Below are positions 5,369 through 19,606 of a DNA stretch of 64,000 bases, in pieces. The translations under genes and the position numbers were made by a program. The first letter of the stretch is position 1. Every line of letters begins with the position of its first letter. This DNA is from an uncultured Trueperaceae bacterium (GTDB lineage Bacteria; Deinococcota; Deinococci; Deinococcales; Trueperaceae), in the NCBI GenBank assembly GCA_937873495.1, contig CALMXZ010000010.1, positions 434,001 to 498,000 of the forward strand. The letters run 5' to 3'. Below the pieces are notes generated by a model. The model saw nothing but the letters and a program-made list of their open reading frames with translations, was not told the DNA's origin and ran no database searches.

Positions 5369-6832
5369 TCAGCCGGCGATGTGAACGGACTTGCTCAGGA
5401 GGAACTCTTCCAAGCCGGGTCGGCCGAGCTCGCGCCCGAAGCCGCTCGCCTTCCAGCCACCCACGGGGACCTCGGGGTTGACGATGCCCCAACCGTTGAC
5501 CCACACGGTACCGGCCTTGAGGCCGCGCGCCACACGCAGCGCTTTGCCGACGTCGCGCGTCCAGACGCCAGATGCGAGGCCGAAGACGGTGTCGTTGGCC
5601 AGCGCGACGGCCTCCTCGACGTCGCCGAAGCGCATGACGGCGAGGAGCGGCCCGAACACCTCCTCCTTGGCGATCGTCATGCTCGGCGCGACGTCAGTGA
5701 AGACCGTCGGGCCGATGTATGCCCCCCGCCCGTACTCCCCGCCGGCGAGGCGCTCGCCGCCGTGGAGCAGCCGCGCGCCTTCCGCCAGGCCCGAGGCAAC
5801 GTAGCGCTCGATGCGCTCGAGGTGAGCGGGCGAGATCACCGGCCCGAGGTCGACGTCGTCGCGTTCTGGTGAGCCGACACGCATGGTCTTGGCGGTCGCC
5901 ACCAACCGCTCGACGACCTCGTCGTGCACGCTGTCCTGTACGAAGAGGCGCGAGCCGGCCGTGCACACCTGGCCGGAGCGCCAGAAGATGCCCCAGGCCG
6001 CGGCGGTCGAGGCGGCCGCCAAGTCGGCGTCCTCGAAGACGATGTTCGGCGACTTGCCGCCCAGCTCGAGGGAGACGCGCTTGAGCGAGCGCGACGCGAG
6101 CTCCATCACGCGCTTGCCGCTCGCCGTGGAGCCGGTGAAGGAGACCATGTCGACGCGCTCGTCGGTGATGAGCGGCTCGCCTATCTCGGCGACCTCGCCC
6201 ATCACGACGTTCATGACCCCGGGCGGGAGGCCGGCGTCCGTGAGGAGCCGCGCCAGGCCGACCGTCGTGGCCGGCGTCTGGGAGTCGGGCTTCACCACGA
6301 CGCTGCACCCGGCGGCGAGCGCGGGGCAGATCTTCCAGGCGGCCTGGTTGAGGGGGAAGTTCCACGGTGCTATCAGGGTGGCGACGCCGACCGGCTCCTT
6401 GACGGTGAAGGCGAGGAGGCCCGGCCCGAAGGTCGTCGTCTCGCCGTGGACGTCGCGCGCCAGGCCGGCGTAGTAGCGCAGGAGGTCGACGACCCAGTCG
6501 ATCATCTGCCGCGCCTGCCCGATGGGGGCCCCGCTCGTGACGCTCTCCCAGCGAGCGAACCGCTCCTTGTCGTCCTGTAGGGCCGCGGCGGTCCTGAGGA
6601 GCACGTCGGCGCGCGCGGCGCCAGTGGCGTTCGACCAGGCGCCGGCGTCGAACGAGCGGCGGGCTGCCGCGATGGCGGTGCGCGCGTCGTCGGCCCCACC
6701 GGACGCGAAGCTGCCTACGAGTGCCCCCGTCGCCGGGTCGAGCCTCTCGTAGCGGGCGCCGCTCGCCGCCGGACGCTCCGCCCCGTCTATGAAGAGGTCC
6801 ATCGACACGACCCGGTGCTCGGTTGCTGGCAT
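5369..6832 (-). CDS. NAD(P)-dependent aldehyde dehydrogenase
   Basis: 487-residue member of the aldehyde dehydrogenase superfamily, oxidising an aldehyde to its acid with NAD(P). All landmarks are present: PWNFPLNQAAWK with Asn158, FTGSTASGK of the cofactor fold, general base Glu256 in LELGGKSPN, and nucleophile Cys290 in GQVCTAGSR, plus the C-terminal GGWKASGFGRELG. Length is normal. GAGGGAAGG precedes the ATG. It diverges from the GH31 sugar operon over 172 bp that contains its promoter and a probable GntR-type operator, so it likely belongs to that pathway and may oxidise the aldehyde released by the aldolase (lactaldehyde or a related three-carbon aldehyde). Closest subfamily looks betaine/lactaldehyde-like; the substrate is inferred. 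Confidence 0.9.
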   Translation of the reverse strand: MPATEHRVVSMDLFIDGAERPAASGARYERLDPATGALVGSFASGGADDARTAIAAARRSFDAGAWSNATGAARADVLLRTAAALQDDKERFARWESVTSGAPIGQARQMIDWVVDLLRYYAGLARDVHGETTTFGPGLLAFTVKEPVGVATLIAPWNFPLNQAAWKICPALAAGCSVVVKPDSQTPATTVGLARLLTDAGLPPGVMNVVMGEVAEIGEPLITDERVDMVSFTGSTASGKRVMELASRSLKRVSLELGGKSPNIVFEDADLAAASTAAAWGIFWRSGQVCTAGSRLFVQDSVHDEVVERLVATAKTMRVGSPERDDVDLGPVISPAHLERIERYVASGLAEGARLLHGGERLAGGEYGRGAYIGPTVFTDVAPSMTIAKEEVFGPLLAVMRFGDVEEAVALANDTVFGLASGVWTRDVGKALRVARGLKAGTVWVNGWGIVNPEVPVGGWKASGFGRELGRPGLEEFLLSKSVHIAG

Positions 6833-6877
6833 GTGCGCGGCCTTCCCTCTACCGCCTCGGAAGCGGCTCTCGTGAAG

Positions 6878-6923
6878 TTGACAACTCGCTGGTGACTATA
6901 TACGCTGTAGACGCTGTATACAA
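6878..6923. promoter_or_regulatory. Divergent promoters with a GntR/FCD-like operator
   Basis: Minus strand: TTGTAT (6918-6923), 17 bp, TATAGT (6895-6900) directs the aldehyde dehydrogenase. Plus strand: TTGACA (6878-6883) lies within GTTGACAAC, with TACGCT 17 bp downstream as a weak -10. The region holds the palindrome TGTATACA (6915-6922), fitting the general GntR half-site pattern (GT...AC), and a tandem 9-bp repeat ACGCTGTAG/ACGCTGTAT (6902-6919). A regulator bound here would cover both promoters. The FCD-type GntR gene of the same locus (12539) is the obvious candidate; this link is inferred. Confidence 0.6.
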
Positions 6924-6978
6924 CTCTAGCAGAAGCGCGTCGGGGACGCTAGAACAGCGGCGTTTGGAGCGAGAAGCC

Positions 6979-7008
6979 ATGCGAACGATCACGGGTAGAC
7001 GCCGATGA
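6979..7008 (+). CDS. Nine-residue leader ORF overlapping the GH31 start
   Basis: ATG at 6979, preceded by GGAGCGAGAAG, reads MRTITGRRR and stops at TGA 7006-7008, which overlaps the ATG of the GH31 gene (7005) as ATGA. It could drive translational coupling of a gene that has no good ribosome-binding site of its own. Alternatively it is the genuine N-terminus of the glycosidase, shifted out of frame. Function is not known. Confidence 0.35.
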   Translation: MRTITGRRR

Positions 7009-9377
7009 CGGGGAAGACCGCCGGCCACCCCGGTCCGGGCGGCGCGGGCCCCGGGGGAGGGCGGCTCCCTGCGGGAGTGGGTCTCCCCGGGGGAGGGCGT
7101 CTCGCCTGGGCGGGTGAAGAGCGTTCCGCCGCGCGCTCGCGCATCGTGTTCGAGGGCGGCGGCGTGGCCTGTTACGCGGGCGGTGAGCGCCGCTGGTCGG
7201 TGCTCAGCGTGGCCTGTCGCGCTCAGGACGGGCGGTGGCACGCCGTCGCGGTCGGCGCTCTCCTCGCCGCACCGACCGCGCTGGGCGCCGGCGCAGGTGT
7301 GGAACTCGCTCTCCCGGCGGCCGCGAACGTGGAGTTCGCGCCCGGCCTGTCCGGCACCCTCGAGCTGCGTGCGCCGCGGGAGGCCCCGCCCCTCGCGACC
7401 GGGGCGCCGTCGAAGTGCGCCGCCGACCTGGAGCTGGAGCTGAGCGTTCCGGGTGCCGCCTGGTGCGCCGTCGACCTGGTCTCCGAACACGACGAGCACT
7501 ACCTCGGCTTCGGCGAGCGCTTCGACAGCATCGACAAGCGTGGCCGGGAGGTACGGGTCGAGGTCGTCAACGGGGCCTCCGGCAACCTGGCATACAAGCC
7601 CGTTCCGTTCTTCGTCTCGAGCCGCGGCTACGGCGTTCACGTCGTGACGGACGCGCGCCTCGACGCGCGCATGGCCGTGCCGGACTCCCCGGCCACCGCC
7701 TCGCTGCGCGTCGCGAACTCCTCGGTGAGCTTGCGCTTCTACCACGGCGCCCCGACGGAGGTCCTCGCGGCCTACACGTCCGAGGCCGGCCGGCCCGCGC
7801 TGCCGCCCGCCTGGGTGTTCGGCCCGTGGAAGTCGCGCGACTGGACGCTCGAGGATCAGGCGACGGTGCTGGAGGACGTACGCGAGTCGCGCCGTCACGA
7901 CCTGGCGAACAGCGTCAAGCTCATCGACGCCAAGTGGGAGACCGCCGAGCACACCTTCGTCTTCGACGAGGCCAAGTACCCCGACGCGGCGGCGATGGTG
8001 CGCGAGATCCGCGCCTCTCGCATGCGCCTCGTGCTGTGGCTCTCGCCCTGGCTCGTCCTCAACGATGAGACGGCCGCGGTCCACGCGGCGGCGGCCGCCA
8101 AGGGCTACCTCATCAAGGACCGGCGCGGCGCGACGTACGTCCACCGCCTCGGCAACAGCCCCGACTTCGTCGGCAGCTGCGTGGATTTCACGAACCCCGC
8201 CGCCGTGGCATGGTGGCAGGAGAACGTGCGGAGGCTCGTCGAGCTGGGGGTGGACGGCTTCAAGACGGACTTCGGTGAGCAGGTGCCCGAGGACGCCGTC
8301 TTCTTCGACGGCAGCACCGGCGCGCAGATGCACAACGTGTTCCCGCGCCTGTACAACGCCGTGACGTACGAGGCCATGCAGTCAAGGACGAACGGCGTGC
8401 TCCTCGCCCGCTCGGCGTGGCACGCCTCGCAAGGGCTCTCGGCCATCTGGGCGGGCGACCAGGCGTCCGACTTCGGCCCCGCCACCGGCCTCGAGAGCGT
8501 CATCCGGGCAGGTCAGAACGCCGGTGCCTCCGGCTTCCCCTACTGGGCGAGCGACATCGGCGGCTACTTCGGGGTGCCGACCGACGAGGTGTTCGCACGC
8601 TGGGCGCAGTTCGGCGCGTTCTCGCCCATCATGCAGGTCCACGGCATGGGCAAGCGCGAGCCGTGGCGCTTCGAGCCGAGGACGTTGGCCATCTACCGCG
8701 CGTACGCGCAGCTCCACACCGACCTCTTCCCCTACCTCTACGCCGCCGCGCGCGACGCGAGCGAGCAGGGGGTGCCGATCATGCGCCCGGTCGCGTTCGC
8801 CTTCCCCGGCACCGACGCCTGGGGCGACACGCAGGAGCACCAGTACCTGTTCGGCGCTTCGCTCCTCGTTGCGCCCGTCTACGTCGGCTTCAACAAGCGC
8901 AAGGGCGTGTGGCTGCCGCCCGGTGCCGACTGGTTCGAGCTCTGGACGGGCCGCCGCTACGCCGGCGGTCGGACGGTCGTCGTCGACGTGCCCCTCGAGC
9001 GCATCCCCGTCTTCGTCGCGGCCGGCTCGCTGGTGCCTCTGCTCACCGAGTCGCCGAGGACCCTCGTCTGTGAAGGCGACGACCCGCTCGCCGCCTGGCC
9101 CGACCTCGACGTCCTCGTCTACCCTGGGAACGACGCGGCGTTCCGCCTCACCGACGGCACCGAGCTGCGGTGGGACGACGCCGGGCGGCGGCTGACCGTC
9201 GCCCGTTCGCCCAGGCCGCGGCGCGTCGCCGTCCACCTGATGGACGGCGCGGGCCTCGCCGTCTTCGACCGCGCGCCCGGGGCCCGAGCGGTGGACGGCA
9301 GGCTGCCGCGCACCTTGGAAGTGACGCCGCACGACCACGCGACCAGCGTCCGGTTCGACTACGAGAAGGAGGAGTGA
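7005..9377 (+). CDS. GH31 family alpha-glycosidase
   Basis: Up to 790 residues; retaining alpha-glycoside hydrolase of family 31, cytoplasmic because no signal peptide is seen. The nucleophile is Asp422 in DGFKTDFGE and the acid/base is Asp485 in WAGDQASDF. FKTDFGE and the following MHN segment resemble alpha-xylosidases of the YicI type, while WAGDQ and SDIGGYF resemble the YihQ (sulfoquinovosidase) branch. The sulfonate-binding Arg/Trp loop I recall from YihQ is not visible: the equivalent stretch, LIDAKWETAEHTF, is short. The substrate is therefore an imported alpha-glycoside of unknown type. The N-terminus is doubtful: the first 35 residues are Gly/Pro-rich and encoded by two copies of a 15-bp repeat (7049-7063, 7085-7099), so the true start may be downstream, for example near residue 45. 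It heads the plus-strand sugar operon. Confidence 0.9.
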   Translation: MTGKTAGHPGPGGAGPGGGRLPAGVGLPGGGRLAWAGEERSAARSRIVFEGGGVACYAGGERRWSVLSVACRAQDGRWHAVAVGALLAAPTALGAGAGVELALPAAANVEFAPGLSGTLELRAPREAPPLATGAPSKCAADLELELSVPGAAWCAVDLVSEHDEHYLGFGERFDSIDKRGREVRVEVVNGASGNLAYKPVPFFVSSRGYGVHVVTDARLDARMAVPDSPATASLRVANSSVSLRFYHGAPTEVLAAYTSEAGRPALPPAWVFGPWKSRDWTLEDQATVLEDVRESRRHDLANSVKLIDAKWETAEHTFVFDEAKYPDAAAMVREIRASRMRLVLWLSPWLVLNDETAAVHAAAAAKGYLIKDRRGATYVHRLGNSPDFVGSCVDFTNPAAVAWWQENVRRLVELGVDGFKTDFGEQVPEDAVFFDGSTGAQMHNVFPRLYNAVTYEAMQSRTNGVLLARSAWHASQGLSAIWAGDQASDFGPATGLESVIRAGQNAGASGFPYWASDIGGYFGVPTDEVFARWAQFGAFSPIMQVHGMGKREPWRFEPRTLAIYRAYAQLHTDLFPYLYAAARDASEQGVPIMRPVAFAFPGTDAWGDTQEHQYLFGASLLVAPVYVGFNKRKGVWLPPGADWFELWTGRRYAGGRTVVVDVPLERIPVFVAAGSLVPLLTESPRTLVCEGDDPLAAWPDLDVLVYPGNDAAFRLTDGTELRWDDAGRRLTVARSPRPRRVAVHLMDGAGLAVFDRAPGARAVDGRLPRTLEVTPHDHATSVRFDYEKEE

Positions 9378-9507
9378 ACCGACAGGTGAGCCACCGGGTT
9401 GACCAGCGGGTGAACAGACGGATGGCTCGAGGTAGGCACGCTAGCCCCAGCCCGGCCCCAGGACTCCTGGTCGCCGGAGACCCTCATGGACGGGAGACTC
9501 CAGGAAG

Positions 9508-10740
9508 ATGAAGAAGCCGACAAGGTTGCTGTTCGTTGCCGCCGCGTTCCTTACGCTGGCGGTCGCCAACGCCCAGACGCGCGTCAACGTCTGGATCTAC
9601 GAATCGTTCGCGGGCAACGACTCGCCCATCTCCAAGGCCGCCGCGGACTTCATGGCTCAGAACCCGGACGTCGAGATCAACCTGATCCCCACGGCCTCGA
9701 CCTCGTCCGCCTACCGCGACCCGTTCATGGTCGCCGCTCAGGGCGGCGGCGGTCCGGATGTGCTCATGGCCGACATCGCCTGGTCGCCGGAGTTCGCCGC
9801 GATGGGCATCGTCAAGGACCTGAGCGGCCACCTGGCAGGCAAGGAGGACGAGTTCTTCCCTGGGCCCCTAGACACCCTGCGCTACGAGGGCGGCATCTAC
9901 GGCGTGCCCTTCTACACGAACGCGCTCGGCATGTTCTACAACAAGACGGCCTTCGTCGAGGCCGGGCTACCGCTGCCGGATGCCGACTGGACCTGGGCGG
10001 ACTTCCGCACGGCCGTCGACACGCTCTCGAACGGCGAGATGTACGGCTTCGGCCTGGAAGGCGCCTGGGGCGGCACGTTCGAGTGGTACCCCTGGTTCTG
10101 GCAGGCCGGCGGGCAGCTCCTGAGCGACGACGGCACGACGCCGACGTTCAACTCCGAAGCCGGCCTCGAGGCGACGCGCTTCTTCCTCGACATCGTCACC
10201 AACCCGCGTTACGTCCCGGAAGCCGCCAAGACGTGGAAGGGCTGGGCCGAGCTGGCCGCCGCCTTCTCCAACAAGGTGATCGCGATGTACGAGGTCGGTG
10301 ACTGGGGCATCGCCATGGTCGACGGCATGAACCCGCCGTTCGAGTGGGGCGTCGCGCCCCTCCCGTCCAACGGCCAGCGCGCCAGCCTCGTCGGCGGCGC
10401 CAACTGGGTCATGAATGCCAACACCAAGGTCGAGGACGCCGCCTGGCGCTGGCTCGAGTACGTCACCGGCCCGGCCGTCTTCCCGCTGATGGACGGTTAC
10501 AACCGCGTGGCCGCCCGCCGCGGCGCCGCCGAGGCGCAGGAGATCGTCAAGGCCGACCCGCGCATGCAGGTCCTCACCGCGAGCCTGGAGTTCGCCAAGG
10601 CGCGCCCGACCGTGCCACTGTGGACGACCATCGACTACGACTGCCTGCAGCCCGCGTTCGTGCGCGTCATCCTCGAGGGTGCGGACGTGACGAGCGAGAT
10701 GGCCAACGCCGAGATGTGCGCCCTGGACGTGCTGAGGTAA
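9508..10740 (+). CDS. ABC sugar transporter, extracellular solute-binding protein (family 1)
   Basis: 410-residue secreted binding protein that would deliver an oligosaccharide or sugar to the two permeases that follow. A Sec signal peptide covers residues 1-22 with cleavage after ANA; there is no lipobox Cys. The mature part has the family-1 layout: VNVWIYESFAG opening, GPDVLMADIAW, YGVPFYTNALGMFYNK hinge and a tryptophan-rich ligand cleft (EWYPWFWQAGG). Two cysteines near the C-terminus (in DYDCLQP and AEMCALD) could form a disulfide. GGGAG lies about 11 nt before the ATG, in a 130-bp gap after the GH31 gene where no clear promoter is seen. Confidence 0.92.
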   Translation: MKKPTRLLFVAAAFLTLAVANAQTRVNVWIYESFAGNDSPISKAAADFMAQNPDVEINLIPTASTSSAYRDPFMVAAQGGGGPDVLMADIAWSPEFAAMGIVKDLSGHLAGKEDEFFPGPLDTLRYEGGIYGVPFYTNALGMFYNKTAFVEAGLPLPDADWTWADFRTAVDTLSNGEMYGFGLEGAWGGTFEWYPWFWQAGGQLLSDDGTTPTFNSEAGLEATRFFLDIVTNPRYVPEAAKTWKGWAELAAAFSNKVIAMYEVGDWGIAMVDGMNPPFEWGVAPLPSNGQRASLVGGANWVMNANTKVEDAAWRWLEYVTGPAVFPLMDGYNRVAARRGAAEAQEIVKADPRMQVLTASLEFAKARPTVPLWTTIDYDCLQPAFVRVILEGADVTSEMANAEMCALDVLR

Positions 10741-10747
10741 CGAGCGC

Positions 10748-11695
10748 GTGGTGAGGCGCGGCGAGAAGGAAGGGTTGGTGGCGAGAGAGCGCGCCACCAA
10801 CCGCCGCCCGGGCCGGCTGCACCGCAGCTGGCCCGGCTACGTGCTCGTGTTGCCTGCCATGCTCGCCCTCGTCGGGGTGATCGGCTACCCGCTCGTGCGC
10901 GCGTTCGTCATGAGCTTGCACAAGATCATCCTGATCAGGCCCCAGCTCGGCCAGCCGTTCGTGGGGTTCGAGAACTACTTGACCGTCCTCAAGTCGCCCT
11001 ATTTCTCCAACGCTATCTGGCAGACCTTCGTATGGACCTCGGTGAACCTCGTCGGGCAGCTCGCGCTCGGACTGCTCATAGCCCTATTGCTCAACTCGGC
11101 GTTCCCCGGCAGGGGCATCGCCCGCAGCGTGATGCTCATCCCGTGGGTCATCCCCTCGGTGGTCGCCGTGCTGACCTGGAAGTGGATGTACGACGGCCAG
11201 TTCGGCGTCATCAACTCCTTCCTCGTGCGCCTCGGCGTGATCGAGAAGGGGGTCGCGTGGCTCGGTAACACTGGCACCGCCATGGGCGCCGTGCTCATCG
11301 AGAGCATCTGGAAGGGCACCCCGTTCGTGCTCATCATGCTCCTGGCCGGGCTGCAGGCCATCCCGGCCGAGCTCACGGACTCGGCGAGCGTGGACGGCGC
11401 CAACGTCTGGCAGCGCTTCCGCTACGTCACGCTCCCGTTCCTGAAGCCCACCATCGTCATCGCCGCCACCCTGACGACCATCTACTCCTACAACAACTTC
11501 AACGCCATCTGGCTCATGACGGAGGGCGGACCGTTGCGCGCGACCGAGACCCTGACGATCCTCACCTACAAGCTCGCCTTCCGTAACTTCGACATGGGCA
11601 GCGCCACGGCCGCCGGGGTGCTGACCTTCTTCGTGCTCCTCGTGTTCGTGGTCGTGTTCGGGCGCCAGTACGTGAAGTCGCAGATGGAGTTCTGA
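10748..11695 (+). CDS. ABC sugar transporter permease (MalF/UgpA type)
   Basis: 315-residue inner-membrane permease with six predicted helices and the EAA loop, here DSASVDGANVWQRFRYVTLP, that docks on the ATPase. A GTG start at 10748 follows GAGGT by 9 nt; a second GTG at 10778 after GGAAGGG is an equally reasonable start. It begins 7 bp after the binding-protein stop and is followed after 1 bp by the partner permease. No ATPase gene is in the operon, so an MsmK/UgpC-type multitask ATPase elsewhere must energise it, as is common for family-1 sugar importers. Confidence 0.92.
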   Translation: MVRRGEKEGLVARERATNRRPGRLHRSWPGYVLVLPAMLALVGVIGYPLVRAFVMSLHKIILIRPQLGQPFVGFENYLTVLKSPYFSNAIWQTFVWTSVNLVGQLALGLLIALLLNSAFPGRGIARSVMLIPWVIPSVVAVLTWKWMYDGQFGVINSFLVRLGVIEKGVAWLGNTGTAMGAVLIESIWKGTPFVLIMLLAGLQAIPAELTDSASVDGANVWQRFRYVTLPFLKPTIVIAATLTTIYSYNNFNAIWLMTEGGPLRATETLTILTYKLAFRNFDMGSATAAGVLTFFVLLVFVVVFGRQYVKSQMEF

Positions 11696-11696
11696 C

Positions 11697-12542
11697 GTGG
11701 CCGCCGCCGGCCTGCGCCGCCGCGCGCGGCGGCTGCCAGCCATGCTGGCGGCGTTCTTCATCTGCTTCGTGTTCGCCATCCCGTTCCTATGGATGATCCT
11801 GACCTCTTTGAAGCTGCCATCCGAGCTCTTCACGAGCCCCGTCCAGGTCTTCCCGCGCTCCGGCGTCTACTGGGAGGCGTACACGCGAATCTGGACGGCG
11901 GGCCAGTTCGGCCGTTACTTCTGGAACAGCACGCTCGTCGCGAGCATCGCGACGAGCGCGTCCGTCGCCCTGTCCGTCTTCGCGGCGATCGGCTTCGCGC
12001 GCTACAAGCTCAAGGGCGGCAACTACCTGCTGCTCGGCGTGCTCCTCAGCCAGCTCTTCCCGCTCGTGCTCCTCGTGCCGCCGTTCTACACGGTGCTGCG
12101 CGAGCTGCGTATCCTCGACACCCACCTGGCCCTCGTCATCGCGTACACGAGCTTCGCCCTACCGTTCAGCATCTGGATGCTGACGGGCTACTTCCGCTCC
12201 ATCCCGGCCGAACTCGAGGAGTCCGCGATGATCGACGGCGCGACCCGCCTCGGCGCCCAGCTCAGGGTGATCCTGCCTCTGGCGGGGCCCGGCATCGCCG
12301 CCACCGTCATCTACAGCTTCATCCTCGCGTGGAACGAGTTCCTCTTCGCCACTACCTTCATCAGCTCGCCCGAGTTGAGGACGTTGCCGATCGGCCTGCA
12401 GTCGTTCATCGGGCAGTACAGCACCGACTGGAACCTGCTCATGGCGGGCGCCGTCGTCACGACCGTGCCAGTGATCGTCCTGTTCGTGTTCCTGCAGCGC
12501 TACCTCGTGGCCGGGCTCACGGCCGGGGCGGTGAAAGGGTGA
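11697..12542 (+). CDS. ABC sugar transporter permease (MalG/UgpE type)
   Basis: 281-residue second permease of the importer, six predicted helices, with the EAA loop ESAMIDGATRLGAQLRVILP and the typical end segment TDWNLLMAGAVVTTVPVIVLF. The GTG start lies immediately after the stop of the first permease, and its own stop overlaps the GTG of the GntR gene by 4 nt (GTGA), so transporter and regulator are translationally coupled. Confidence 0.92.
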   Translation: MAAAGLRRRARRLPAMLAAFFICFVFAIPFLWMILTSLKLPSELFTSPVQVFPRSGVYWEAYTRIWTAGQFGRYFWNSTLVASIATSASVALSVFAAIGFARYKLKGGNYLLLGVLLSQLFPLVLLVPPFYTVLRELRILDTHLALVIAYTSFALPFSIWMLTGYFRSIPAELEESAMIDGATRLGAQLRVILPLAGPGIAATVIYSFILAWNEFLFATTFISSPELRTLPIGLQSFIGQYSTDWNLLMAGAVVTTVPVIVLFVFLQRYLVAGLTAGAVKG

Positions 12543-13285
12543 TCACCAGGCTCTCCCCGCCCGACTGGCGCGCGGCCCTCGCCGTGACCGGGAAGGTCGT
12601 CGGCACGTCCCAGAGCGAGTACGCCCACAGCACGCTCTTCCAGGCGATCGTCCAGGGGCGCGTTGGCCCGGGCTGCCATCTGGCCGAGCAGCCGATCGCT
12701 GACACCATCGGGGTGAGCCGCATCTCCGTGCGCGACGCCATCCGCCAGTTGGAGTCGGCGGGCCTGGTGAGCATCTACCCGCATCGGGGCGCGTTCACGG
12801 TGAGCTTCACGCCGCAGGACATCGAGGAGATCTTCGGCCTGCGCTCCGCCCTGGAATCCCTCGCCATCAGGCTCGTGGCCCAGGCCGCCAAACGCACGGA
12901 CATCGCGCGGCTCGAGGACGTCATCGACGAGATGGCCGCCGTGGAGGCGCGCGGCGATCGCTACGCCGGCGCGCGCGTCGACGCGAAGTTCCACGGCATC
13001 CTGATGGAGGTCTCCGGGCACGGCCGCGCGTTCGAGGCCTGGAAGCGCATGAGCGCGCAGATCACCATGGCCGTCTACAGCGCGGCCTCCTACTACGACG
13101 CCATCGGCAACCTCGCCGAGCGCCACGTGACGATCATCGAGGGCCTCAAGTCCGGCGACGCCGACCGCTGCGAGCGCCTCATCGTCGAACACATCATCAG
13201 CGGGAGCCACCGCCTGCTGGAGGCCGTCGGCCGCCAGCGGCTGCTGGAAGAGCAGGCCCGCCGCCGTGAGCACACGGCCAGCTAA
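12539..13285 (+). CDS. GntR-family transcriptional regulator, FCD subfamily
   Basis: 248-residue regulator with an N-terminal winged HTH (about residues 30-90; LAEQPIADTIGVSRISVRDAIRQLESAGLVSIYPHRGAFT) and a C-terminal all-helical FCD domain of the kind that binds organic or sugar acids, often through a metal. The GTG start overlaps the permease stop; an in-frame extension far upstream lies inside the permease gene and is discarded. As the only regulator in the locus, it probably controls the divergent promoters near 6.9 kb, where a TGTATACA palindrome matches GntR-type operators. The neighbouring acid-sugar dehydratase fits an acidic inducer. Confidence 0.9.
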   Translation: MITRLSPPDWRAALAVTGKVVGTSQSEYAHSTLFQAIVQGRVGPGCHLAEQPIADTIGVSRISVRDAIRQLESAGLVSIYPHRGAFTVSFTPQDIEEIFGLRSALESLAIRLVAQAAKRTDIARLEDVIDEMAAVEARGDRYAGARVDAKFHGILMEVSGHGRAFEAWKRMSAQITMAVYSAASYYDAIGNLAERHVTIIEGLKSGDADRCERLIVEHIISGSHRLLEAVGRQRLLEEQARRREHTAS

Positions 13286-13294
13286 GGAACGCGC

Positions 13295-14455
13295 ATGAGA
13301 ATCGACCGCATCACGGCCTCCGTCATCCGCTACCCGCTCCCGCGCCCGCTCAGGCCTTCGTGGGCGCCGGGCAGGGAGTTCAGCCACACGACCTGCACAC
13401 TCCTCGAGGTCACGACGGACGACGGCGTCGTCGGCTACGGGGCCGCGCCCGACACCGGGCAGATCGGCCTCGCGACCATCTCCGACATGGTCGCCCCGTA
13501 CGTGCTCGGCAAGGACCCGTTCCAGGTTGAGGAGCTGAGCCCCATCCTGCGCAACGCCGCGCGCGACGGCAGCTACCCGTGGGGCTTCGAGACCGCCCTG
13601 TGGGACATCATCGGCAAGGCCGCCGGCATGCCCGTGTACCGGCTGTGGGGGGCGCACAAGCGGCGCATCCGTGCGTACGCGAGCCTGGCCGAGCTCACTA
13701 GCGTCGAGGAGCAGGTCGAGCGCCTCGGCGCCCTCAAGGCACTCGGCTTCACCGCCGCCAAGCTGCGCCTGCGCCGCCCGAGCGTCCGCGAGGACATCGC
13801 GTTCGTCGAGGGGGTGCGCTCCGCCATCGGCGACTCCATGGAGCTCATGGTCGACGCCAACCAGGCGCACGTCATGCCGAGCCCCGGCCCGCACAACTTC
13901 TGGCGCTTCGAGGACGCGCTCGCCGTCGCCAGGGCCATGCAGGACCTCGGCGTCGTCTGGCTCGAGGAGCCGCTGCACCGCTACGACTACGGCGGCCTGG
14001 CGCGCCTGTGCGACGCCGTCGACATCCCGATAGCCGGTGGCGAGCTCAACCTCGGCCTGCACGAGTACAAGCTCCTCATCGACCGCGGCTGCTACGACAT
14101 CATCCAGGCCGACTGCGCCTTCTCCGAGGGCGTGTTCCAGCTGCGCAAGGTGGCCGCCCTGGCCGAGCTCGCCTACAAGCGCTTCATCCCGCACACCTGG
14201 TCGAACGGCGTCGGGTTGGCGGCCAACCTGCAGCTCGCCGCCGCCACGCCCAACTGCGACTGGTTCGAGTTCCCCATCGACCCGCCCGCCTGGACGCCGG
14301 CCGCGCGCGACTTCATGCTCGACCGGCCGTTCCAGGTCGACGCGGACGGCTACATCACCGTCGGCGACGCCCCCGGCATGGGCATGGAGTTCGACCGGGC
14401 GGCCGTGGCGCCGTACGTCGTCGCGACGTGGGACAGCCGGGCGGTGGCGGGTTGA
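13295..14455 (+). CDS. Enolase-superfamily (mandelate racemase/MLE type) sugar-acid dehydratase
   Basis: 386-residue enzyme of the mandelate racemase-like group; such proteins usually dehydrate aldonic or aldaric acids, abstracting a proton next to a carboxylate with Mg2+ help. Metal ligands are visible as Asp187 (MVDANQ), the Glu pair at 224-225 (WLEEPL) and Glu250 (AGGELN). The base Lys156 in AAKLR and His300 in PHTW form the usual pair. AAGGAA precedes the ATG by 4 nt, and it follows the regulator after 9 bp. Its presence implies that an acid sugar is also handled, or that this is a racemase/epimerase; the exact reaction cannot be deduced. Confidence 0.85.
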   Translation: MRIDRITASVIRYPLPRPLRPSWAPGREFSHTTCTLLEVTTDDGVVGYGAAPDTGQIGLATISDMVAPYVLGKDPFQVEELSPILRNAARDGSYPWGFETALWDIIGKAAGMPVYRLWGAHKRRIRAYASLAELTSVEEQVERLGALKALGFTAAKLRLRRPSVREDIAFVEGVRSAIGDSMELMVDANQAHVMPSPGPHNFWRFEDALAVARAMQDLGVVWLEEPLHRYDYGGLARLCDAVDIPIAGGELNLGLHEYKLLIDRGCYDIIQADCAFSEGVFQLRKVAALAELAYKRFIPHTWSNGVGLAANLQLAAATPNCDWFEFPIDPPAWTPAARDFMLDRPFQVDADGYITVGDAPGMGMEFDRAAVAPYVVATWDSRAVAG

Positions 14456-14463
14456 ACGGTCGG

Positions 14464-15708
14464 ATGGCCTTGCGGCAGGCGGCGCACGCGGTGGCGGCCG
14501 CGCCGGCATCCGAGGCGGCGGGGCTCGCCGCCGCCCTGCTGATGGACTGCGCACGCTTCGGCGTGGCGCCCGCGCCGGTCGGGACCATCTACCGCGCGCT
14601 CGCCGAAGGCCGGCTCGCGCCGCTCACGGTGCCGGCCTTCAACGTGCGCGGCCTCACCTTCGACGTGGTGAGCGCCGTCTACCGGCGCGCCATGGAGCTG
14701 GACGCGGCCGGCGTGATGTTCGAGCTGGCGCCGTCGGAGGCCGCCGTGGCCGACCAGTCGTTCGCCCAGTACGCCGCCCTGGTGTGCGCGGCGGCCGCCA
14801 CGACCGGCTACCGCGGACCGGTGCTCATCCAGGGCGACCACTTCACCGTCGAGAGCGACGACGACGCGAGCGTGGCCGAGGTGGAGGGGCTCGCGCGCTC
14901 GGCGCTCGACAGCGGCTTCCTCCAGCTCGACCTCGACGCCGCCGCCCTGGCCGTGGAAGGCTCCAGCGCCGCGGCGCGCCAGGACCGTAACGCCGCCGTC
15001 ACCGCCGGCCTGATGGCGCGGTTGGCGCCGCGCGCGCCCGCCGGCGCGATCTTCGGCGGAGAGGTTGGCGAGATCGGCGGCGCTAACACCACGCCGGAGG
15101 AGCTCGACGTGTTCGTCGACCTCGTGCGGCGCCACGCCGGCGCGGCCGCGGGCGCCTTCGGCAAGGTGAGCGTTCAGACGGGCACGCGCCACGGCGGCAT
15201 GACCGACGCGTCCGGCAAGCCGGCACGCATGCCGCTCGACACGGCGCTGGCGCGCGAGCTCGCTGACGTCGCCAGGGCCAAAGGCCTCCCCGGCATCGTC
15301 CAGCACGGCGCCTCGACGCTCCAGAGCGATCAGTTCGCCGCCCTGCCGGGCTGCGGCGTAGTAGAGGTGCACCTGGCGACGAACCTGCAGGACCTCGTCT
15401 TCGACTCACCCGCCTTCCCGCCCGAGCTGCGCGCCGAGCTGGTGGCCGCCGCCTTGGGTGGCCCCGCCGGAGCCGCCGAACGGGGTGCGGACACCTCCGG
15501 TGTGGGCGACCAGCTCTTCAGGCAGCGGCGGTGGAGCCTCTGGGGGCCGTTCAAGCGCCGCCTCCTCGACCTCCCCGACGAGACCCGGGCGGGCCTGGCC
15601 GCTGGCGTCGCCGACTGGGCCGGCGACCTCATGGTCGCGTTCGGCCTCGCAGGGCGCGCGGCGGAGCTACGCGGCCTGTACACGGGCGCGGCGGCGTCGG
15701 GTAGGTGA
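14464..15708 (+). CDS. Class II (metal-dependent) aldolase of the FBA/TBA family
   Basis: 414-residue protein, longer than ordinary class II fructose-bisphosphate aldolases (about 285-360). Family marks are PAFNVRG near residue 58, Asp125-His126 in IQGDHF, Glu200/Glu203 in GGEVGEIGG, His243 in TGTRHGG and His281 in VQHGAST. These correspond to the catalytic Asp and the zinc ligands, so it should be active. It would split a phosphorylated ketose into a triose phosphate and an aldehyde. In context it follows the kinase and isomerase steps encoded just downstream, and the aldehyde dehydrogenase across the divergent promoter could take the aldehyde. No strong ribosome-binding site is seen at the ATG; the C-terminal 80 residues (a WSLWGPFKRR segment onward) are an extension I do not recognise. 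Confidence 0.8.
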   Translation: MALRQAAHAVAAAPASEAAGLAAALLMDCARFGVAPAPVGTIYRALAEGRLAPLTVPAFNVRGLTFDVVSAVYRRAMELDAAGVMFELAPSEAAVADQSFAQYAALVCAAAATTGYRGPVLIQGDHFTVESDDDASVAEVEGLARSALDSGFLQLDLDAAALAVEGSSAAARQDRNAAVTAGLMARLAPRAPAGAIFGGEVGEIGGANTTPEELDVFVDLVRRHAGAAAGAFGKVSVQTGTRHGGMTDASGKPARMPLDTALARELADVARAKGLPGIVQHGASTLQSDQFAALPGCGVVEVHLATNLQDLVFDSPAFPPELRAELVAAALGGPAGAAERGADTSGVGDQLFRQRRWSLWGPFKRRLLDLPDETRAGLAAGVADWAGDLMVAFGLAGRAAELRGLYTGAAASGR

Positions 15709-15838
15709 GGGGGTGTCCGACTACCCCGCTATGTACGTCCGCACCGACCGACGGGTCGGGGCGGCGATGACGCGGCGCCGGTCATACGCTCGCCGGATGC
15801 GTGACGACCGACGGCTCGGGGGGACCATTACCCCGCGC
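15709..15838. repeat. Short gap with imperfect direct repeats spaced 60 bp
   Basis: The gap between aldolase and kinase contains GACCGACGGGTCGGG (15746-15760) and GACCGACGGCTCGGG (15806-15820), 60 bp apart, each followed by a G-rich run. Near-copies of TACCCCGC also flank the pair (15722 and 15829). No promoter is evident. Confidence 0.45.
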
Positions 15839-16834
15839 ATGAACGCCCCCATCCTCTTCCTCGGCATGGCGACGCTCGACTTCGTGACTGTCGTGCCGTA
15901 CCTGCCGGCGTCCGACGAGGTGTTCGAGGTCCGCTCCCTGAGCATGCACGGCGGCGGTCCGGCCGCCACGGCGGCCGTGGCCTGCGCCCGGCTGGGTGGC
16001 AGCGCGCGCTTCGCCGGCGCGCTCGGGCGGGATCCCGTTGCCGAGACGGTCGTCGCGCAGCTGGCGAGCGAGGGCGTCGACACGCGGCTAGTCGGGCTCG
16101 CGCCGAACGCCTCCACGCCTTCCGCCGTGATCCTCGTGGAGGAAGGCGTAGGCCACCGCGCGATCCTCTACTCCAAGGGCACCGCGCCGGAGCCGGAGTG
16201 GAGCGGCGAGCTGGAGGCAGCCGTGCGCGGCGCCGCCATGCTGCACATCGACGGCTTCCATCCGCTCACGGCCATCCGCGCTGCCCGGGTGGCGCGCGAG
16301 GCCGGGGTGAGCGTGTCGCTCGACGGGGGCGCCGGCATGCGCTGGCCACACCTCGACGAGCTACTGCCGCTCGTAGACCTGCTCGTCGTGGCGCGCTCCT
16401 TCGCCGAGCGCGAGGCGGGTGAGAGCGATCCCGCCGCGGCCGCACGAGCGTTGGCCGCGTCGTTCGAGGCTAGGGAGGTCGTGGTGACGGACGGGGCGCG
16501 CGGGGCCTGGTACCACGTCGCCGACCGCGCTGGTAGGGCCGGCGGCAGGGGTGAGGAGAGTCACGGGGGAGAGGATCACGGGGTCGAAGAGGGTCACGTG
16601 CCGGCCTTCGCCGTCGACGTGGTGGACACGACGGGCGCCGGCGACGTCTTCCACGGCGCCTACGCGCTGGCCAGGTCAGAAGGGATGGCGGTGCGGGAGG
16701 CCGTGCGCTTCGCGTCGGCCGCCGCGGCGCTCAAGTGCCGCGCGCCTGGTGGCAGGGCGGGCATACCGAGCCGCGCCGAGGCCGAAGCCTTGGTTACCGG
16801 CCGCCCGGCCGGCGAAGGGAACGGGAACGCATGA
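15839..16834 (+). CDS. PfkB-family sugar kinase
   Basis: 331-residue ribokinase-like enzyme that would phosphorylate a ketose with ATP. Signature 1 is HGGGPAATAAVACARLGG (about 37-54) and signature 2 is DTTGAGDVFHGAYAL with catalytic base Asp269. The final block AALKCRAPGGRAGIP is of the kind I recall in YihV (sulfofructose kinase) and some ketohexokinase-like PfkB proteins. An odd 23-residue Gly/Glu/His-rich insert (about 231-253) interrupts the loop before signature 2. The ATG at 15839 is chosen because the family N-terminus (ILFLGMATLDFV) starts there. Its stop overlaps the next ATG by 4 nt (ATGA), coupling it to the isomerase-like gene. Confidence 0.88.
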   Translation: MNAPILFLGMATLDFVTVVPYLPASDEVFEVRSLSMHGGGPAATAAVACARLGGSARFAGALGRDPVAETVVAQLASEGVDTRLVGLAPNASTPSAVILVEEGVGHRAILYSKGTAPEPEWSGELEAAVRGAAMLHIDGFHPLTAIRAARVAREAGVSVSLDGGAGMRWPHLDELLPLVDLLVVARSFAEREAGESDPAAAARALAASFEAREVVVTDGARGAWYHVADRAGRAGGRGEESHGGEDHGVEEGHVPAFAVDVVDTTGAGDVFHGAYALARSEGMAVREAVRFASAAAALKCRAPGGRAGIPSRAEAEALVTGRPAGEGNGNA

Positions 16835-18150
16835 CGAAGAGCAGGGTCGGACTAGTGTCAGTCGGCGTGCCGTGGTTCGACGTGGCTCGCGCCGACGAGA
16901 TGGTCGGCGCCACCCGCGTGGCCCTGGAACGGGAGTTCGCCGTGGTGGGTCCGACGCGGACGGTCACGGACGGCGCCGAGCTCACGAGCGCGCTCGCCGC
17001 CATGCGGCAGGCCGAGGTGAGCGCGGCGGTGTTCCAACTCGGGACGTTCCCCGACGGCAACACGCCCGCCCAGGTGGCCGAGACGCTTGGCGTGCCCGTC
17101 GTGCTGAGCGGCTTCCCCGAGCCTCTCGCGGACGGCCGCGTGCCGAACAACAGCCTGTGCGGCCTGAACATGGCGACCTACACGCTGGCGGAGCTCGGGC
17201 ACAGGTTCTCGCACGTCTTCGGCGACCCGCGCGAGCCGCGAGCCGCCGCGCGGCTCGTGCAGCACGCCCGCGCGGCCGCCGCGTTGCAGGGCCTGCGCGG
17301 CAGCGTCGTCGGCCTCCTCGGCTACCGCGCGCCCGGCTTCTATCCGGCCACGTTCGACGAGCTGCTGCTGCGGCGCACGTTCGGCGTGCGGGTGGAGCAC
17401 CTCGGCATCCAGGAGGTCACGGACCGGGTGAGGGCGGGCGCTTTCAAGGAGCCGCCCGTCGCGGCGTTCCCCACCATCGAGGGGGGAGAGCTCGGGCCGG
17501 AGGCCGTGCGGTGGCTGGGGCGGTACTACGGTGCCCTCTCCGAGGCCGTTGCGGCTAGCGGGCTCGGCGCGGTGGCGATCAAGGACTGGCCCGAGATGGC
17601 GCCGTTCGTGCCGGAGATACCGGCCGGCATCTGGCCAGCGCTGAGCTGGCTGCAGGACGACGGCGTGAACGTGGCGCCAGAGGGCGACGTCAACGGCGCC
17701 GTGACCATGGAGCTGCTCGCGCGCCTCACGGGTGGCGGCGTGCCGTTCTTCGCGGACATCAGCGCGTTCGACGAGGCCGCCTCCACGCTCGTCCTCTGGC
17801 ATTACGGGGGCGGCACCAAGCTCGCGCGCTCCCCGGGCGACATCAGGTTCGGCGCAGATGGGCGCGAGCTCGAGTTCTCGCTCAAGCCGGGGGCGGGAGT
17901 CCTGGCGCGCCTGGGCTACAGCCGCGGGGCGTACCGGTTGCTGCTCATCGAGGTGGAAGTCATGGACGAGCGTCTGACCCTGCGGCGGGCCGCGGGCCGC
18001 GTGCGCACCACGCGCACGAACGCCGCCGCCGTGGTCGAGGAGCTGCTGAGCAAGGGCTGGGAGCACCACGTGTCGTTCGTGCATGGCGACGTGGCCGAGG
18101 CGCTCGGCGCGTTCGCGAAGCAGGCGGGGTTGCCGATCACGCGGCTGTAG
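16831..18150 (+). CDS. L-fucose/L-arabinose isomerase-family protein
   Basis: 439 residues. The C-terminal half has the fucose-isomerase metal-site layout: KDWPEM, then EGDVNGAVTMELL, then PFFADIS and LVLWHYGGG, giving the acidic, Asp and His ligands. Family members interconvert aldoses and ketoses with Mn2+. Start at the ATG within ATGA of the kinase stop; GGGAACGGGAACGC precedes it. In this operon it would make the ketose that the adjacent PfkB kinase phosphorylates. It is shorter than FucI of enteric bacteria (about 590) and matches the shorter, less characterised branch. Its stop codon TAG overlaps a -10-like TAGTCT serving the next gene. Confidence 0.82.
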   Translation: MTKSRVGLVSVGVPWFDVARADEMVGATRVALEREFAVVGPTRTVTDGAELTSALAAMRQAEVSAAVFQLGTFPDGNTPAQVAETLGVPVVLSGFPEPLADGRVPNNSLCGLNMATYTLAELGHRFSHVFGDPREPRAAARLVQHARAAAALQGLRGSVVGLLGYRAPGFYPATFDELLLRRTFGVRVEHLGIQEVTDRVRAGAFKEPPVAAFPTIEGGELGPEAVRWLGRYYGALSEAVAASGLGAVAIKDWPEMAPFVPEIPAGIWPALSWLQDDGVNVAPEGDVNGAVTMELLARLTGGGVPFFADISAFDEAASTLVLWHYGGGTKLARSPGDIRFGADGRELEFSLKPGAGVLARLGYSRGAYRLLLIEVEVMDERLTLRRAAGRVRTTRTNAAAVVEELLSKGWEHHVSFVHGDVAEALGAFAKQAGLPITRL

Positions 18151-18159
18151 TCTGGCCGC

Positions 18160-18615
18160 ATGATCGAAGGTGCCCGCTACGCGCACACGAACCTCGTCGC
18201 CCGCGACTGGCGGGCCTTGGCCGCGTTCTACACCGACCTCTTCGGCTGCCGGTTCGTGCCGCCCGAGCGCGACGACGCCGGCGCTCTCCTCGAGGCCGGT
18301 ACGGGCGTGGCCGGCGCCAAGATGGCCGGGGTGCACCTGCGCCTGCCAGGGCACGGCGACACGGGGCCGACGCTCGAGATCTACGCGTACTCGCCCCTGC
18401 TGGAGGCGCCCGGCACGGCCGTCAACCGCCCCGGCTACGGGCACCTCGCGTTCGAGGTCGCGTCCGTGGCCGACGCGCGGGAGCGCGTCTTGGCCGCCGG
18501 TGGGCGGAGTGTCGGCGAGATCGTCACGCTGGAGCGCACGGGCGGCTCGAAGGTTACGTGGTGTTACGTGACCGATCCAGAAGGGAACATCGTCGAGCTG
18601 CAGGCTTGGAGTTAG
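18160..18615 (+). CDS. VOC/glyoxalase-family protein
   Basis: 151-residue single-gene VOC protein with paired beta-alpha-beta modules: YAHTNLVARDWRALAAFYTDLFG at the start, GYGHLAFEV in the middle and VTDPEGNIVELQAW at the end. His, His and Glu at these places suggest a metal site, so it may be a lyase, isomerase or dioxygenase; no substrate can be named. TAGTCT (18148-18153) lies 6 nt before the ATG and there is no ribosome-binding site, so it is probably a leaderless transcript separate from the sugar operon. Confidence 0.8.
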   Translation: MIEGARYAHTNLVARDWRALAAFYTDLFGCRFVPPERDDAGALLEAGTGVAGAKMAGVHLRLPGHGDTGPTLEIYAYSPLLEAPGTAVNRPGYGHLAFEVASVADARERVLAAGGRSVGEIVTLERTGGSKVTWCYVTDPEGNIVELQAWS

Positions 18616-18665
18616 CGTGGGACTCCATATCTGGGGTAGACTGAACCCATGGATGGAGGTGCGTG

Positions 18666-19118
18666 ATGGCCGGCGCCATGTTCGTTCCCACCCGCTCCGC
18701 GCCGCCCGTTCTGGGCGTGCGTGCTCTGGCCCTCGAAGCGGATAGTGAGTTCGAGGTCGCGGCCCGCATCAAGGAAGGGCTTCCGAGCTCCGCCGTCCAC
18801 GCCTTGGCCAGGCAGCTCGACCGCCCGAGCAAGTACGTCCTCGAGGTCGTCGGGATCCCCGAGAGCACCTTCCATAGCCATCAGAAGACGCGCAAGCCGT
18901 TGTCGGCGGACGCGTCGAGCAGGGTGTACCAGGTCGCGAGAGTGGTAGAGGCGGCGGAGGAGTACTTCGGTGGCGACAAGGATGCGGCGCGGCGCTGGCT
19001 CACGCACCCCAAAGTCGCCCTCGGCGGGGAGGTCCCGCTCGAGTTCGCCAGCACCCCGCAGGGCAGCGATTACGTCGTCAAGCTCCTTGGCCGCATGGCG
19101 CACGGGGTCGTCAGCTGA
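18666..19118 (+). CDS. ParS/MbcA-Xre-type antitoxin (DUF2384)
   Basis: 150-residue antitoxin partner of the RES toxin that overlaps its end. The central region is helical (SSAVHALARQLDRPSKYVLEVVGIPESTFHSHQKTRKPLS) and the last 70 residues have the toxin-binding DUF2384 pattern with RVYQVARVVEAAEEYFGG and AARRWLTHPKVALGGEVPLEFA. GGAGGT lies 5 nt before the ATG at 18666; a GTG one codon earlier is less well spaced. An inverted repeat TGGAGT/ACTCCA (18607-18612, 18622-18627) just upstream is a possible autoregulatory operator. The antitoxin would neutralise the toxin and repress the pair. Confidence 0.88.
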   Translation: MAGAMFVPTRSAPPVLGVRALALEADSEFEVAARIKEGLPSSAVHALARQLDRPSKYVLEVVGIPESTFHSHQKTRKPLSADASSRVYQVARVVEAAEEYFGGDKDAARRWLTHPKVALGGEVPLEFASTPQGSDYVVKLLGRMAHGVVS

Positions 19119-19606
19119 GCCGCACGACCTACCGCATCAGCAAGGCCCAGTACCGCGACACTACGATGACCGGCCTGGGAGCGCGCCTTTTCGGAGGTCG
19201 CTGGAACACGCCCGGGCACGACGCGATCTACACGAGCGGCAACCTCAGCCTCGCGATGCTGGAGGTGCTCGTTCACGTCGATGACGCGGAGGCCTTCCGC
19301 AGGACGCTGCACGTCTTCCACGCGGTGAGCTTTACCGAGGATGCCGTCGCCACCCTGGCCGCGACCGATCTGCCCGCAGGGTGGAACTCGCATCCAGAAC
19401 CGTTGCGGACGCAAGTCGCCGGCGACGAGTGGCTCGACAGCCTCATCGCGCCGGTCCTCGCGGTCCCGAGCGTCATCGTCCCGCCCGAACTTCGCTACGA
19501 TCCGGCTTACCTCACCTACGTCATCAACCCCAGACACCCTGACTTCGCGACCGCCGTCGTGCCCGGCCCCGTCTATGACCTGACGTGGGATCCGCGGCTC
19601 AAGTAG
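19115..19606 (+). CDS. RES-domain toxin (NAD-degrading)
   Basis: RES toxins deplete cellular NAD. The conserved triad is present as Arg29 (FGGRWN), Tyr39 and Glu50 (AMLEVLVH), with exactly the 10- and 11-residue spacing I recall for characterised Res toxins (R31, Y41, E52). To include the family N-terminus TTYRISKAQY, translation must begin upstream of the first ATG (19166); the only suitable place is CTG at 19115, which overlaps the antitoxin stop as CTGA. No in-frame ATG, GTG or TTG exists there. So either a CTG start with translational coupling is used, or a truncated protein starts at 19166. Length from CTG is 163 residues, normal for the family. Confidence 0.85.
   Translation: MSRTTYRISKAQYRDTTMTGLGARLFGGRWNTPGHDAIYTSGNLSLAMLEVLVHVDDAEAFRRTLHVFHAVSFTEDAVATLAATDLPAGWNSHPEPLRTQVAGDEWLDSLIAPVLAVPSVIVPPELRYDPAYLTYVINPRHPDFATAVVPGPVYDLTWDPRLK

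Follow-up and report, generated by a model that had tools for sequence, protein, structure and literature searches.

What sugar does a bacterium break down with relatives of the sulfoquinovose-degrading enzymes when the residues linked with the sulfonate have been replaced? This question is raised by a locus at positions 5369–18150 of a 64,000-nucleotide stretch (the window) of contig CALMXZ010000010.1 from an uncultured member of the Trueperaceae (Deinococcota). The locus encodes an importer, a GH31 glycosidase, an isomerase, a PfkB kinase, a class II aldolase and an aldehyde dehydrogenase (ALDH). We read it as a ketose-1-phosphate route that resembles the sulfoglycolytic Embden–Meyerhof–Parnas pathway (sulfo-EMP) and serves a sugar without a sulfonate group, for which xylose and quinovose are possible candidates, and we give this reading about an even chance. 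It is built on gene content, order and conservation, on kinship and fold, and on the loss of basic positions.

All genes that the original prediction, drawn from the nucleotide sequence alone, had named in this interval are present and intact. The features are as follows.

5369–6832, minus strand: ALDH (PF00171), divergent from the operon, proposed to oxidize the C2 or C3 aldehyde from the aldolase
6874–6929, no strand: 56-bp intergenic block with the core TGTATACA at 6915–6922, candidate operator and divergent promoter region
7005–9377, plus strand: GH31 α-glycosidase (PF01055), start codon uncertain
9508–10740, plus strand: ATP-binding cassette (ABC) solute-binding protein (SBP_bac_1), with mostly sugar-binding proteins as PDB neighbors
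10748–11695, plus strand: sugar ABC permease 1 (BPD_transp_1)
11697–12542, plus strand: sugar ABC permease 2 (BPD_transp_1)
12539–13285, plus strand: GntR/FCD transcriptional regulator (PF00392 and PF07729, scanned within a longer frame)
13295–14455, plus strand: enzyme of the mandelate racemase/muconate lactonizing enzyme (MR/MLE) superfamily (PF13378/PF02746)
14464–15708, plus strand: divergent class II aldolase (PF01116 over cut-off), proposed ketose-1-phosphate aldolase
15839–16834, plus strand: PfkB kinase of the YihV neighborhood, non-basic at the equivalents of YihV positions 27 and 138
16831–18150, plus strand: aldose isomerase of the SftI/SqvD branch (NF048012 at 200 bits, fold and tree; no HxNR motif)
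18160–18615, plus strand: VOC/glyoxalase-family protein (PF00903), 9 bp after the isomerase, possibly the last gene of the operon

Two runs of genes are tight, one spanning the binding protein through the aldolase and the other the kinase and isomerase, with overlaps of at most 4 bp (the regulator start, read at 12539, overlaps permease 2 by 4 bp) or gaps of 1–9 bp; wider gaps of about 130 bp lie between GH31 and the binding protein and between aldolase and kinase. The G+C content of the locus (0.71) equals that of the window (0.70). All ten genes recur in the same order in a congeneric genome (G004; isomerase 94% and aldolase 89% identical), where a VOC/glyoxalase gene also follows the isomerase. 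They recur in this order in a second genome (G003) as well, spread over two contigs, while neither the isomerase nor the aldolase is found in three further genomes of the same genus (G001, G002 and G005). The block at 6874–6929 is identical in three congeners amid variable flanks, which fits a shared regulatory site. Its core TGTATACA occurs three times in the genome, and a promoter scan of the block gave no consensus sigma-70 site. The suggested operator between ALDH and GH31 is plausible. Directly downstream of the locus (18663–19606) lies a pair of genes for an Xre/MbcA/ParS-type antitoxin and a RES-domain toxin.

How might these proteins act together? The ABC importer would take up an α-glycoside, and the GH31 enzyme, apparently cytoplasmic, would release an aldose from it. 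The isomerase would convert this aldose to the 2-ketose, which the PfkB kinase would phosphorylate, probably at C1. Cleavage of the ketose-1-phosphate by the class II aldolase would then yield dihydroxyacetone phosphate (DHAP) and a short aldehyde for oxidation by the ALDH. Hydrolysis, isomerization, phosphorylation, cleavage and oxidation would follow one another as in sulfo-EMP; this presumed order, which had also been proposed from the sequence alone, is supported here.

The isomerase has a single NCBIfam match, the sulfoquinovose isomerase SftI (NF048012), at 200 bits and hence below the curated cut-off of 700. None of 111 Deinococcota genomes passes this threshold, the window protein being among the best of the phylum, and a Chlorohelix homologue, with genes for a sulfite reductase and for a PfkA-type kinase next to its own, reaches 343 bits. 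The cut-off alone is therefore not decisive. An AlphaFold2 (AF2) model of the isomerase (mean predicted local distance difference test score, pLDDT, of 83) has the L-arabinose/L-fucose isomerase fold over its full length, with Z scores of 32.7 to 27.6 (next match outside the family, 12.7), as expected for the fucose-isomerase-like enzyme first described. The catalytic residues E284, D309 and H324 are invariant. In a maximum-likelihood tree the protein groups on a long branch with SqvD-like isomerases from Chlorohelix and Zymomonas (support 100/99). An HxNR motif that follows the WHCG box in 14 readable sulfo-type relatives is absent from the isomerases of the window and of G004; two further relatives carry a variant, and one row of the alignment was not readable. 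A role of this motif in sulfonate binding is a guess. The Chlorohelix gene lies on a plasmid (L052, 7422–17592) together with genes for a PfkA-type kinase, an ALDH of the succinate semialdehyde dehydrogenase (SSADH) type, a nitrite/sulfite reductase and siroheme synthesis. The Zymomonas plasmid pZZM402 (L053, 128–4636) combines an SftI-like isomerase with a class II aldolase, an aldose epimerase and Gfo/Idh genes.

As a comparison set for residue tests we used two recurrent sulfo-EMP-like modules of the Deinococcota, assigned by family and context. Module A contains an importer, an isomerase and a YihV-type kinase with basic residues at positions 27 and 138, mostly with a LacD-type class I aldolase, a GH31 enzyme with a DGRAW motif and an SSADH-type ALDH. 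It occurs on the Deinococcus peraridilitoris plasmid pDEIPE01 (L054, 2548–13272) and at five other loci (L021, L026, L147, L148 and L149). Module B, from Trueperaceae (L022, L024, L025 and L150–L155), contains an isomerase, a YihV-type kinase and usually a LacD-type aldolase, and Gfo/Idh-family genes replace GH31; these could encode GH188-like sulfoquinovosidases. One review (PMC12890257) names Proteobacteria and Actinobacteria as hosts of sulfo-EMP, and Firmicutes as hosts of sulfo-EMP2, and does not list Deinococcota for this pathway. In the limited literature collection that we searched, no paper brought together sulfoquinovose, sulfoglycolysis and Deinococcota.

The kinase finds its best PDB match in the sulfofructose kinase YihV (7ag6, 140.7 bits; ribokinase, 118.7 bits). 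The two proteins are 37–39% identical and have VDTTGAGDVFHGA and the predicted C-terminal PGGRAGIP segment in common. The residues that we take to bind the sulfonate in YihV set the window clade apart from 18 sulfo-type kinases (YihV, a Chelatococcus protein and 16 from the Deinococcota clusters). The equivalent of position 27 is basic in all 18 and in none of the five window-clade kinases, which have Val (V28 in the window); at position 138 the counts are 17 of 18 and none of five, the window clade having Phe or Val (F140 in the window). The window clade has Tyr at position 109, which varies among the sulfo-type kinases too. In a tree with YihV and its relatives, a comparison that the original prediction had called for, the window clade falls outside the sulfo-kinase clade as its sister (81/85), and a clade of the window kinase with YihV is rejected by an approximately unbiased test that was named after the tree had been seen (p-AU 0.02). 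A search for kinase relatives on plasmids gave no match. The neighbors of window-clade kinases in four genomes (G015, G032, G020 and G030) differ and point to no clear sugar. The window kinase also has a paralogue in its own genome (L146, 38%), surrounded by dipeptide/ABC transport genes and with a canonical class II aldolase close by; it is not informative.

Sulfolactaldehyde dehydrogenases have a proposed sulfonate-binding pair, Arg171/Arg289 in RlGabD and His/Asn in Bacillus (PMC10599462). At this anion-anchoring pair the window ALDH has Trp/Trp, whereas E. coli GabD has Arg/Arg, like the relatives from Deinococcota and from Chlorohelix. In the GH31 enzyme the catalytic KTDFGE and WAGDQ segments are present, and so is DIGGY, which like WAGDQ was noted at the outset. 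Alignment bears out the remark that it lacks the sulfonate loop: the RxxW motif of YihQ is absent, and the C6-pocket strand reads LIDAKW instead. The enzyme is nearer to YicI than to YihQ (262 versus 185 bits), and in the tree it forms its own long-branched clade whose placement is not reliable. Hence the resemblance to the YihV/YihQ branch is supported for the kinase, for which YihV is the best solved relative, and not for the glycosidase. The analogy to sulfo-EMP divides in a similar manner: the kinship of the isomerase to SftI and of the kinase to YihV fits it, whereas kinase, isomerase and ALDH lack the sulfo-type basic positions or motifs, which makes sulfoquinovose itself unlikely.

The aldolase scores over the PF01116 cut-off, and its metal site is intact as predicted, with D125, H126, H243 and H281 invariant in a five-sequence alignment. 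A phmmer search against solved structures gave no PDB match, and the protein is not a close relative of SqiA; a profile search against the PDB returned two weak matches, both aldolases. The AF2 model (pLDDT 87) fits class II aldolases, with GatZ and UxaE matching it about as well. Relatives are rare and come from other Trueperaceae, from Chelatococcus (beside a PfkB kinase) and from a Nealsonbacteria contig (beside a Pfk gene). Aldolase and kinase genes adjoin in the window, in G004, G020 and G030, and in Chelatococcus. Two ordinary class II aldolases are also encoded in the genome to which the window belongs. On the Chelatococcus plasmid (L051, 11621–18463) the class II aldolase of the window type is accompanied by a YihV-like kinase, a DeoR regulator and a sugar importer, with no isomerase nearby.

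Which sugar would such a pathway serve? Kinase, isomerase, ALDH and GH31 have each lost such features independently, which speaks against a sulfonated sugar; we regard a non-sulfonated one as most likely from these residue patterns. The same patterns disfavor a plain sulfoquinovose pathway. The hydrophobic Val/Tyr/Phe set of the kinase suits a pentose or a 6-deoxyhexose without a charged C6. Candidates are D-xylose, which would give DHAP and glycolaldehyde, and 6-deoxy-D-glucose (quinovose), which would give DHAP and lactaldehyde. No xylose isomerase (TIGR02631) is found in the genome, and the XylB-like and GlcD-like matches all fall below cut-off; with no TIGR02631 protein present, redundancy is no argument against xylose. 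Among the papers listed by a literature search on lactaldehyde, aldolase and catabolism, none names quinovose or 6-deoxyglucose. The full proposal is a natural α-xyloside or α-quinovoside pathway via a ketulose-1-phosphate, in which a branch of the sulfoglycolysis enzyme families without sulfonate binding is joined by an aldolase from a class II subfamily that has received little study; we put it forward tentatively, as possible and somewhat doubtful.

Several points weigh against a ketose-1-phosphate route for a non-sulfonated sugar. The sulfonate-binding roles of K27, N109 and R138 in YihV and of R301/W304 in the RxxW loop of YihQ are assumptions, and our comparison of these residues covers conservation. 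The reference sulfo-type clusters, YihV excepted, are assigned by family and context. The GH31 enzyme has a lysine, K310, in its C6-pocket strand that could bind a charged C6, and this is the main point in favor of such a substituent. An acid sugar is indicated by the FCD regulator and by the MR/MLE enzyme. Finally, the aldolase fold is tied within about one Z unit between GatZ (28.6), GatY/AgaY (27.9), SqiA (27.9) and the 4-epimerase UxaE (27.5), and N230 of class II aldolases aligns with H303.

The alternative that best survives is a true yet divergent sulfo-EMP, an EMP1/EMP2 hybrid in which the sulfonate is bound by other residues such as K310. It would agree with the SftI-like isomerase, the YihV-like kinase, the lysine of the C6 pocket and a gene order resembling that of the Deinococcota clusters, and hybrids of this kind are on record (PMC9594981; PMC12890257). 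Set against this are the basic positions or motifs gone from three enzymes, the missing YihQ loop and the position of the kinase outside the sulfo clade, and we consider this explanation improbable.

Next comes ordinary hexose scavenging, in which GH31 would free glucose or galactose; the fructose- or tagatose-1-phosphate made from it would be split into DHAP and glyceraldehyde, and glycerate would follow. The chemistry would be the same with a C6 hydroxyl, and the GH31 and binding proteins do resemble maltose and α-glucoside systems. However, glucose has no need of such a route, and among the three YihV positions the Tyr is the only polar partner for a C6 hydroxyl. This alternative is unlikely.

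Less likely again is an acid-sugar pathway for a hexuronate or aldonate. Here a GH31 enzyme with K310 would free a uronate, the isomerase would form a ketouronate, the MR/MLE enzyme would dehydrate an aldonate and the PfkB protein would be a kinase of 2-keto-3-deoxy sugar acids. The MR/MLE enzyme, whose best NCBIfam matches are arabinonate and talarate/galactarate dehydratases far below cut-off, and the FCD regulator stand within the operon and are left unexplained by our preferred scheme; they keep the acid-sugar reading alive. GH31 also has Ala/Lys at the equivalents of C307/F308 of YicI, which we take to be specificity determinants, and UxaE is among the nearest folds of the aldolase. Yet the kinase scores far better with ribokinase and YihV than with 2-keto-3-deoxygluconate kinases (131 versus 72 bits), the positions equivalent to YihV 27, 109 and 138 are hydrophobic, the cluster encodes no ketouronate reductase and the aldolase belongs by sequence to PF01116.

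Least probable is a reading in which the supposed aldolase acts either as a 4-epimerase resembling class II aldolases or as a GatZ-like subunit, and the pathway would not end in DHAP and an aldehyde: the tied folds and H303 would allow this, and an aldolase is favored by the sequence family (GatZ stays below cut-off in its relatives), by the PDB profile matches and by the repeated pairing with kinases.

If a ketose-1-phosphate route for a non-sulfonated sugar is indeed encoded here, the sulfo-EMP toolkit has a sister route, which would bear on the origin or repurposing of sulfosugar breakdown. The window enzymes would then provide natural controls for identifying the residues that grip the sulfonate, and family membership alone would not suffice to annotate such clusters as sulfoquinovose pathways.

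The closest parallels are found among the sulfoglycolytic pathways. With sulfo-EMP of E. coli (YihQ, YihS, YihV, YihT and YihU) the locus shares the logic of glycosidase, isomerase, PfkB kinase and DHAP-yielding aldolase. It differs in that its isomerase belongs to the SftI branch instead of YihS, its aldolase to class II instead of class I, and an ALDH takes the place of the reductase; importer type and GH31 branch are different, and the basic residues that YihV has at positions 27 and 138 are lost. With sulfo-EMP2 (SqvD, SqiK and SqiA) it shares the SqvD/SftI-branch isomerase, a PF01116 aldolase and the ALDH as the end step (PMC9594981), whereas its kinase is of the PfkB and not the PfkA type, its aldolase is not close to SqiA and its isomerase lacks HxNR. 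The Deinococcota clusters, such as that on pDEIPE01, have the ABC importer, SftI-type isomerase, YihV-type kinase, GH31 and ALDH in common with the window; unlike it, they have a LacD-type class I aldolase, an SSADH-type ALDH with Arg/Arg, a DGRAW-type GH31 and kinases basic at positions 27 and 138. The L-fucose pathway (FucI, FucK and FucA) likewise isomerizes its sugar, phosphorylates it at C1 and splits it into DHAP and lactaldehyde, and its isomerase shares the superfamily fold. Its kinase, of the FGGY type, and its class II aldolase, of the FucA type, belong to families other than those of the window. The Entner–Doudoroff-type sulfofucose (Sfc) pathway of Paracoccus wurundjeri has in common with the locus a dehydratase matching PF13378/PF02746 as well as an ABC importer (PMC12421959); it is an oxidative route with a dehydrogenase, a lactonase and a PF03328 aldolase, which are not found in the window locus. 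All components of the locus come from known families, and their order has a precedent in sulfo-EMP and, as regards its logic, in L-fucose catabolism; what differs is the combination of genes together with the lost sulfonate positions.

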